The notes under the pieces were generated by a model. It searched no databases. It saw only the letters and a list, made by a program, of their open reading frames with translations, and had not been told where the DNA came from. Both the position numbers and the translations under genes were made by a program. From Paracoccaceae bacterium (lineage in GTDB: Bacteria > Pseudomonadota > Alphaproteobacteria > Rhodobacterales > Rhodobacteraceae), in the NCBI GenBank assembly GCA_902632125.1, contig CACPBQ010000001.1, positions 1 to 64,000 on the forward strand: a stretch of 64,000 nucleotides of DNA, given 5' to 3'. Below are positions 56,547 to 57,882 of this stretch, piece after piece (positions within the stretch are counted from its first letter, which is position 1; each line of letters starts with the position of its first letter).

Positions 56547-57086
56547 CTACTTCCTTCGTAAATGTTCTTCTAGTCTCGGCAATATTTCTACGAAGTTACA
56601 CGGCTGATGTCTGAAATCTAATTGTTTCACTAAAATTTCATCCCATGCATCTTTACAGGCCCCAGGACTACCAGGAAGAGCAAAAAGATAAGTTCCACCA
56701 GCAACGCCGGCAGTACTGCGCGATTGAACAGCAGACGTTCCAATTTTTTTCATACTCACGATCGAAAAAATTGTGCTGAATGCATCGATTTCTTTTTCAT
56801 AAACATCACGGTGAGCCTCGACCGTTACATCTCGCCCCGTGAGACCTGTTCCCCCTGTTGATATGATCACATCGACAGTTTTGCTTCTGACCCAATTTTC
56901 AAGCTTTGACCTTATTGCCTGCCTATCATCCTTAATTAGTTCTCGAGTAACAACTTGATGCCCTGAATTTTCTATTCTTTCAGCAAGAATAGAGCCACTT
57001 TTATCGTCTGCCACAGAGCGTGTATCGGACACAGTTAATAATGCAATACGTACCGGTATAAAGCTTTTACTTTCGTCGATAGTCAC
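56547..57086 (-). CDS. moaB: Molybdenum cofactor biosynthesis protein MoaB
   Basis: ALLTVSDTRSVADDKSG; VIISTGGTGLTGRDVT; FALPGSPGACKDAWD. Confidence 0.94.
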   Translation of the reverse strand: MTIDESKSFIPVRIALLTVSDTRSVADDKSGSILAERIENSGHQVVTRELIKDDRQAIRSKLENWVRSKTVDVIISTGGTGLTGRDVTVEAHRDVYEKEIDAFSTIFSIVSMKKIGTSAVQSRSTAGVAGGTYLFALPGSPGACKDAWDEILVKQLDFRHQPCNFVEILPRLEEHLRRK

Positions 57087-57655
57087 GCTAGGTTTCCTAG
57101 TCTTTCTTTAATTTTTAACAAATCGGACCAAGCATCTTTTTTCGCTGCATTATTCCTAAGTAAATATGCAGGATGGCACATGGGCATCAAAGGGACATTA
57201 TCGAAATCAAACCAATTTCCTCTCAGCTTTGTTATCCCAGTTTGGTCGATCAAAGCTCTGCAGCTTATATTCCCTAGAGCTACAATTATTTTGGGTTGAA
57301 CCAATGAAATATGTTTTTTCAAAAATGGTAGCATCATTTTTATTTCTTCAGGGCTCGGATCACGGTTATGAGGGGGTCTCCATGGAATAACATTACAGAT
57401 ATAGGCAGTAGTCGTTAATTTTTCATTCAGATTGTTTTTATCCCTAGTCAGGCCGATTGGTCTGAGCATTTTATCTAAAAGCTGCCCAGCACGACCCACG
57501 AAAGGTACCCCTTGAATATCCTCCTCTCGCCCAGGGGCCTCACCGATAAACATTACTTCTGCATCAGGATCGCCAGACGAAAAAACTAAGTTTCTAGATC
57601 CTTTTTTTAATTCACAGTACTCGTAGTTGGCTAAAGAAGATTTTAATTGCTCCAA
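57083..57655 (-). CDS. Uracil-DNA glycosylase (type 4/5 family), catalytic part
   Basis: VMFIGEAPGREEDIQGVPFVGRAGQLLDKML; ICNVIPWRPPHNRDPSPEEI; MCHPAYLLRN. Confidence 0.93.
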   Translation of the reverse strand: MEQLKSSLANYEYCELKKGSRNLVFSSGDPDAEVMFIGEAPGREEDIQGVPFVGRAGQLLDKMLRPIGLTRDKNNLNEKLTTTAYICNVIPWRPPHNRDPSPEEIKMMLPFLKKHISLVQPKIIVALGNISCRALIDQTGITKLRGNWFDFDNVPLMPMCHPAYLLRNNAAKKDAWSDLLKIKERLGNLA

Positions 57656-57702
57656 ATTTTTAGTCTGTTCTGCTTGAAATACGGCCTCAGCAACTGCCCT
57701 AT

Positions 57703-57882
57703 CTAAATTCGACGTTTTTTTTGTTGTTGAGATATCAGAGTTTTCATTTTTGTCTCATCCATTTGAGAGTGGTCAGAAAATCTATCCAAAGGAACACATC
57801 CAATATTTTCGTTTACTCCCAAATCTAGCTGCCACTTAAGCAACTCTAGAGCGTCCATAATTTCATTTTTTGATTCCATCAT
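57703..57882 (-). pseudogene. Frameshifted N-terminal segment of the uracil-DNA glycosylase gene
   Basis: Read directly: MMESKNEIMDALELLKWQLDLGVNENIGCVPLDRFSDHSQMDETKMKTLISQQQKKRRI*; joins the downstream UDG frame if one A is added at the A8 tract (T8 on + strand, 57715-57722). Confidence 0.75.

Follow-up and report, generated by a model that had tools for sequence, protein, structure and literature searches.

The window analysed here, a stretch of 64,000 nucleotides from a Paracoccaceae bacterium, carries on its minus strand a uracil-DNA glycosylase (UDG) gene whose reading frame is interrupted within its 5' part, followed by a gene for a molybdenum cofactor biosynthesis protein (Table 1). 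The 5' part appears as a 59-aa open reading frame (57882-57703; MMESKNEIMDALELLKWQLDLGVNENIG...SQQQKKRRI), which terminates with a TAG codon at 57705-57703, just past a run of exactly eight A residues (57722-57715) flanked by CAAC on its 5' side and by CGTC on its 3' side. These coordinates, and the placement of the catalytic ORF in another frame, agree with those given in a first-pass annotation of this DNA, as does its statement that a -1 shift at the A8 run joins the 59-aa ORF to the UDG frame. In the stretch 57656..57714 the catalytic frame contains no ATG, GTG or TTG start codon upstream of 57655. Profile searches with the 59-aa ORF by itself gave no family match, the ORF is present only once in the genome, and a promoter scan gave no signal above chance. 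At the other end of the gene, the GTG start codon of moaB overlaps the TGA stop codon of the UDG (GTGA, 57083-57086), and due to this overlap the two genes are probably co-transcribed and translationally coupled. An arrangement of this kind suggests the coupling of a repair gene with a molybdenum cofactor gene.

Table 1. Features of the interrupted UDG gene and its downstream neighbour, in window coordinates
Feature	Position	Strand	Remarks
5' part of UDG gene: N-terminal extension (W-x4-G-x2-E helix and linker), original frame	57703..57882	-	59 codons
A8 run, likeliest site of the net +2/-1 indel	57715..57722	-	Placed by gap scan; A6 in the six nearest relatives
Codons between indel and TTG	57656..57714	-	Match relatives in the catalytic frame only; confident helix in the model of the relative's protein
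Intact UDG catalytic domain, motif A GEAPG, motif B HPAYLL, TTG start	57083..57655	-	190 aa; TIGR00758 E 2.1e-53; PF03167 E 3.7e-35
moaB (molybdenum cofactor biosynthesis protein B), GTG start	56547..57086	-	TIGR02667 E 1.5e-68

The uninterrupted gene in related genomes

The genome containing the window is a 1.9 Mb draft in 79 contigs that is 71% complete. Its nearest relatives include the marine Rhodobacteraceae single-cell and metagenome genomes MED-G52, AG-343-P20, AG-390-A18 and AG-422-J09, and the close-relative set used here consisted of six genomes of the same genus with amino-acid identities of 80-86%. In all six of them the gene is uninterrupted, with 264 codons running from MDSK... 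until the catalytic domain ends, and the N-terminal residues 1-58 of the intact homologues share 50-59% identity with the 59-aa ORF; these two observations show that the joining of the two frames is more than chance. The 59-aa ORF is therefore the genuine beginning of the UDG protein, and the earlier claim that a frameshift in A-rich sequence has divided an N-terminal extension of this enzyme is confirmed. The frame transition is absent from the six close relatives as well as from the other full-length homologues. The apparent absence of the UDG in one relative (G001) looks like the effect of a contig end, the upstream match being located at 7-144 of its contig C33, and two other relatives (G003 and G004) are incomplete genomes.

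At the site of the break, each of the six close relatives has an A6 tract with a T after it, and neither A8 nor A9 is seen in any of them, so that the window has a net gain of 2 nt in comparison to these relatives; once its tract is shortened by two bases it aligns across the 264 codons without any gap. Alternatively, the ancestral tract may have been A9, giving one extra in-frame codon, from which a single A was subsequently lost, and both of these histories would fit equally well. In pairwise gap scans against each of the six relatives the indel was best placed at about 57712-57722, with ties extending up to 57737 in some cases; the A8 run thus appears to be the best site for the indel, though other nearby positions also fit.

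In the structure predicted for the MED-G52 homologue (mean pLDDT 85), a helix at residues 3-19 is followed by a disordered linker around residues 23-51, beyond which confident helices at 58-71 and 75-84 connect to the catalytic fold. According to this model the break is located at the end of the linker, and the 58-71 helix would be missing from a product initiated at the TTG codon (residue 75). The view put forward earlier that an extension beginning near a W-x(4)-G-x(2)-E motif is common in alphaproteobacterial enzymes was borne out, as the strict motif is present in 31 of the 38 alphaproteobacterial homologues and in none of the 66 homologues from other phyla; among 20 further alphaproteobacterial families, 8 have it as well. 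A check for homologues that start at MEQLKSS and lack the extension left this view standing.

Relationship to family 4 and the iron-sulfur cysteines

The ORF 57655-57083 scored 180.6 bits against TIGR00758 (cut-off 125.3) and 121.5 bits against PF03167 (cut-off 24.3), and it contains the two motifs described for family 4 (PMC10359453), viz. GEAPG for motif A (GE(A/G)PG) and MCHPAYLL for motif B (HPA). The model of the relative's protein superimposes on 1ui1 with a TM-score of 0.91 by target length. However, in the four columns occupied by the Fe-S ligands the window sequence has Y, C, W and M, whereas each of the 66 homologues from other phyla has a cysteine in all of these columns. Of the cysteines, the first and the third are missing in all 39 alphaproteobacterial sequences of the set, and in the 20 further alphaproteobacterial families they are absent wherever these columns could be read, with the fourth often kept. 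Across the sequences compared (window 57083-57655 on the minus strand, L003-L031, L037-L045 and L237-L256) the first cysteine is replaced by F/Y or another residue and the third by W (once by Y), and the fourth is often lost too. As the protein fits the profile, motifs and fold of family 4 yet fails its Fe-S cysteine feature, we refer to it as family-4-like, and judged from its sequence it presumably works like a family 4 UDG. The label 'type 4/5' used previously can thus be narrowed to family-4-like on the basis of the match with TIGR00758, but most of the Fe-S cysteines of that family are missing. The sequence comparisons suggest that the alphaproteobacterial UDGs of this type may form a class-wide subfamily devoid of the cluster, mostly with an N-terminal extension; in the literature searched, no paper on cluster-less family 4 UDGs was found.

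The same genome encodes another intact PF03167 protein on contig C6 (L145:5021-5617), which is 198 aa long, has the motifs GQAPG and HPSWRN and scores below the family 4 cut-off; PF03167 matches of similar score are present in the genomes G001, G002, G004 and G007. This protein may or may not overlap with the UDG in function.

Origin of the frame break

A census of frameshifts covered 456 kb of the 1.9 Mb genome. Within this portion, the ORFs of at least 150 aa hold 72 A8 and 32 T8 runs, and the occurrence of A8 in coding DNA of this genome is thus not remarkable by itself. When 204 genes of this genome (about 205 kb) were compared with those of the relative G007, the UDG was the only clear internal frameshift that remained after review. 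The break signals near 64440 and 171800 of contig C1 were rejected, as they arose from ORFs extended upstream of the true start, and the remaining stop flags were judged to fall either close to the start of query ORFs that had been extended too far or within a 95-aa ORF of doubtful status. In the relative G007 itself, a stretch of N within a coding gene, after which the same sequence is repeated (contig C12, L129:8319-8420), is apparently a scaffolding artefact. In the sister single-cell genome G002, an A9 run on contig C3 (T9 on the + strand; L161:10254-10262) breaks the frame of an aminotransferase-like gene close to its 3' end. In view of the one-off breaks in the window UDG and in G002, such breaks at A runs represent a low-level background of these draft genomes.

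The catalytic domain shows dN/dS values of 0.05-0.08 between the window and its relatives, in comparison to 0.04-0.14 among the intact relatives, and for the part preceding the tract the values are 0.16-0.33, similar to the relatives' own range of 0.16-0.29. The catalytic domain is thus still under strong purifying selection with no sign of enzyme decay, and since the constraint is the same as that between intact relatives, the break is either too young for decay to have set in or it is not real. In the 18 codons after the tract, a short stretch whose synonymous sites are near saturation, the changes specific to the window were 5 nonsynonymous to 0 synonymous, a ratio that differs from the 9:14 of the catalytic domain (p = 0.04); against the 7:3 ratio of the stretch preceding the tract, the same changes do not differ significantly (p = 0.5).

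Based on these results, the break is in all probability a singleton indel at the A-rich tract of the linker, i.e. a net +2 nt against the relatives, or -1 from an A9 ancestor, that interrupts a family-4-like UDG gene conserved in all other respects, and it resulted either from a very recent replication slippage in this cell or lineage or from an error in sequencing, amplification or assembly. Between these two origins the odds are about equal, with error slightly ahead. The intact A6 gene in each of the six nearest relatives, the lack of the transition in any other full-length homologue, the mapping of the indel to the A run against every relative, the undiminished constraint on the catalytic domain, the uniqueness of the break among the 204 genes, the comparable A9 case in G002 and the fragmented, incomplete state of the assembly all favour this explanation, and homology-validated frameshifts seen in only one genome are expected to be mostly sequencing errors and otherwise recent indels (Antonov et al. 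2013, PMC3711429). However, a technical error would have to be sporadic, because the presence of about 104 A8/T8 runs in intact ORFs, versus one internal break, argues against a systematic homopolymer error across the genome, and the 5:0 changes after the tract could hint at an older, real break, although they do not differ significantly from those in the stretch before the tract. Of the four explanations offered in the first-pass annotation, sequencing or assembly error and recent mutation fit the observations, whereas phase variation and programmed slippage do not.

If the A8 run is real, ribosomes would complete the 59-aa peptide, and full-length enzyme may be made only at a low level through slippage of RNA polymerase or of the ribosome on the A run, a -1 slip on A_AAA_AAA being one possible leaky route, while a shortened enzyme might result from reinitiation at TTG 57655, 47 nt past the stop. 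These rescue routes, if they operate, would be incidental by-products and no regulatory design. A real break might in addition lower the expression of moaB by polarity. That the A8 run is fixed in the species, so that a constrained repair enzyme is made only via slippage or reinitiation at a level set by polymerase or ribosome infidelity, is very improbable.

It is likewise very unlikely that a real A8 has become fixed in the population with transcriptional slippage, or -1 frameshifting on the in-phase slippery heptamer A_AAA_AAA (57721-57715), restoring a low level of full-length UDG. In its favour, the phase of the A8 suits a -1 slip, constraint on the catalytic domain persists, the frequency of insertions during transcription climbs steeply with the length of A/T runs in E. 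coli and Buchnera (PMC5574713), and in some bacteria IS elements with eight A are believed to make use of slippage (PMC1088944). However, the site is not conserved, as the tract is A6 and in frame in all six relatives, the recency of the break explains the constraint equally well, and pseudoknot-free folding showed no stable stimulatory structure 3' of the run (z-score of +0.87, with 165 of the 200 shuffles folding as well).

There is similarly little likelihood that the gene was rebuilt in this species, with a functional short UDG initiated at TTG 57655 and the 5' part surviving as a relic or a separate peptide. Although this TTG opens the entire catalytic domain, UDGs without an extension exist in other phyla and the window-specific changes in the intervening codons are all nonsynonymous, this excess does not reach significance when compared with the preceding stretch, constraint persists in the part upstream of the tract, no Shine-Dalgarno sequence is evident before the TTG, and initiation here would lose a helix (58-71) that has a pLDDT of about 97 in the relative's model. 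The least probable explanation, with hardly any likelihood, is phase variation, in which switching of the tract between A6/A9 (on) and A8 (off) would serve to vary the repair capacity, for although homopolymers in the 5' part of the gene, as here, are found in known phase-variable genes, this tract is short and not maintained (A6 then T in the relatives), A8 is common in the coding DNA of this genome, and the gene is a repair housekeeping gene with a strongly constrained catalytic domain.

Significance and comparison with known systems

Phase variation and programmed slippage are unsupported, and the frame break is an ordinary finding. Its main consequence is for annotation, where one frameshifted UDG gene starting at 57882 or 57879 should be recorded, instead of a 59-aa hypothetical protein and a short UDG. 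The alphaproteobacterial UDGs of this type have lost two or more of the four Fe-S ligands and have gained an extra N-terminal segment in comparison to other phyla, which may outweigh the frameshift in interest and is biochemically testable. Similar to the genes for which transcriptional slippage is described (the Thermus dnaX gene with its A9 run and the IS elements, PMC1088944), the window UDG has a coding A run and a frame that is off by one; however, unlike in these genes, its run is not conserved among homologues and two useful products are not in evidence. A closer likeness is seen with the singleton frameshifted genes of Antonov et al. (PMC3711429), which also show a homopolymer break in one genome that is confirmed by homologues, and no notable difference from these was observed. 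In comparison to the family 4 UdgA proteins (Thermus 1ui0, Sulfolobus 4zbx and Thermotoga 1vk2), the window enzyme shares the TIGR00758 match and the GEAPG and HPA motifs, and the relative's model shares the fold; however, the window enzyme keeps a single cysteine at the four Fe-S ligand positions, and its homologues add an N-terminal extension of about 74 residues.
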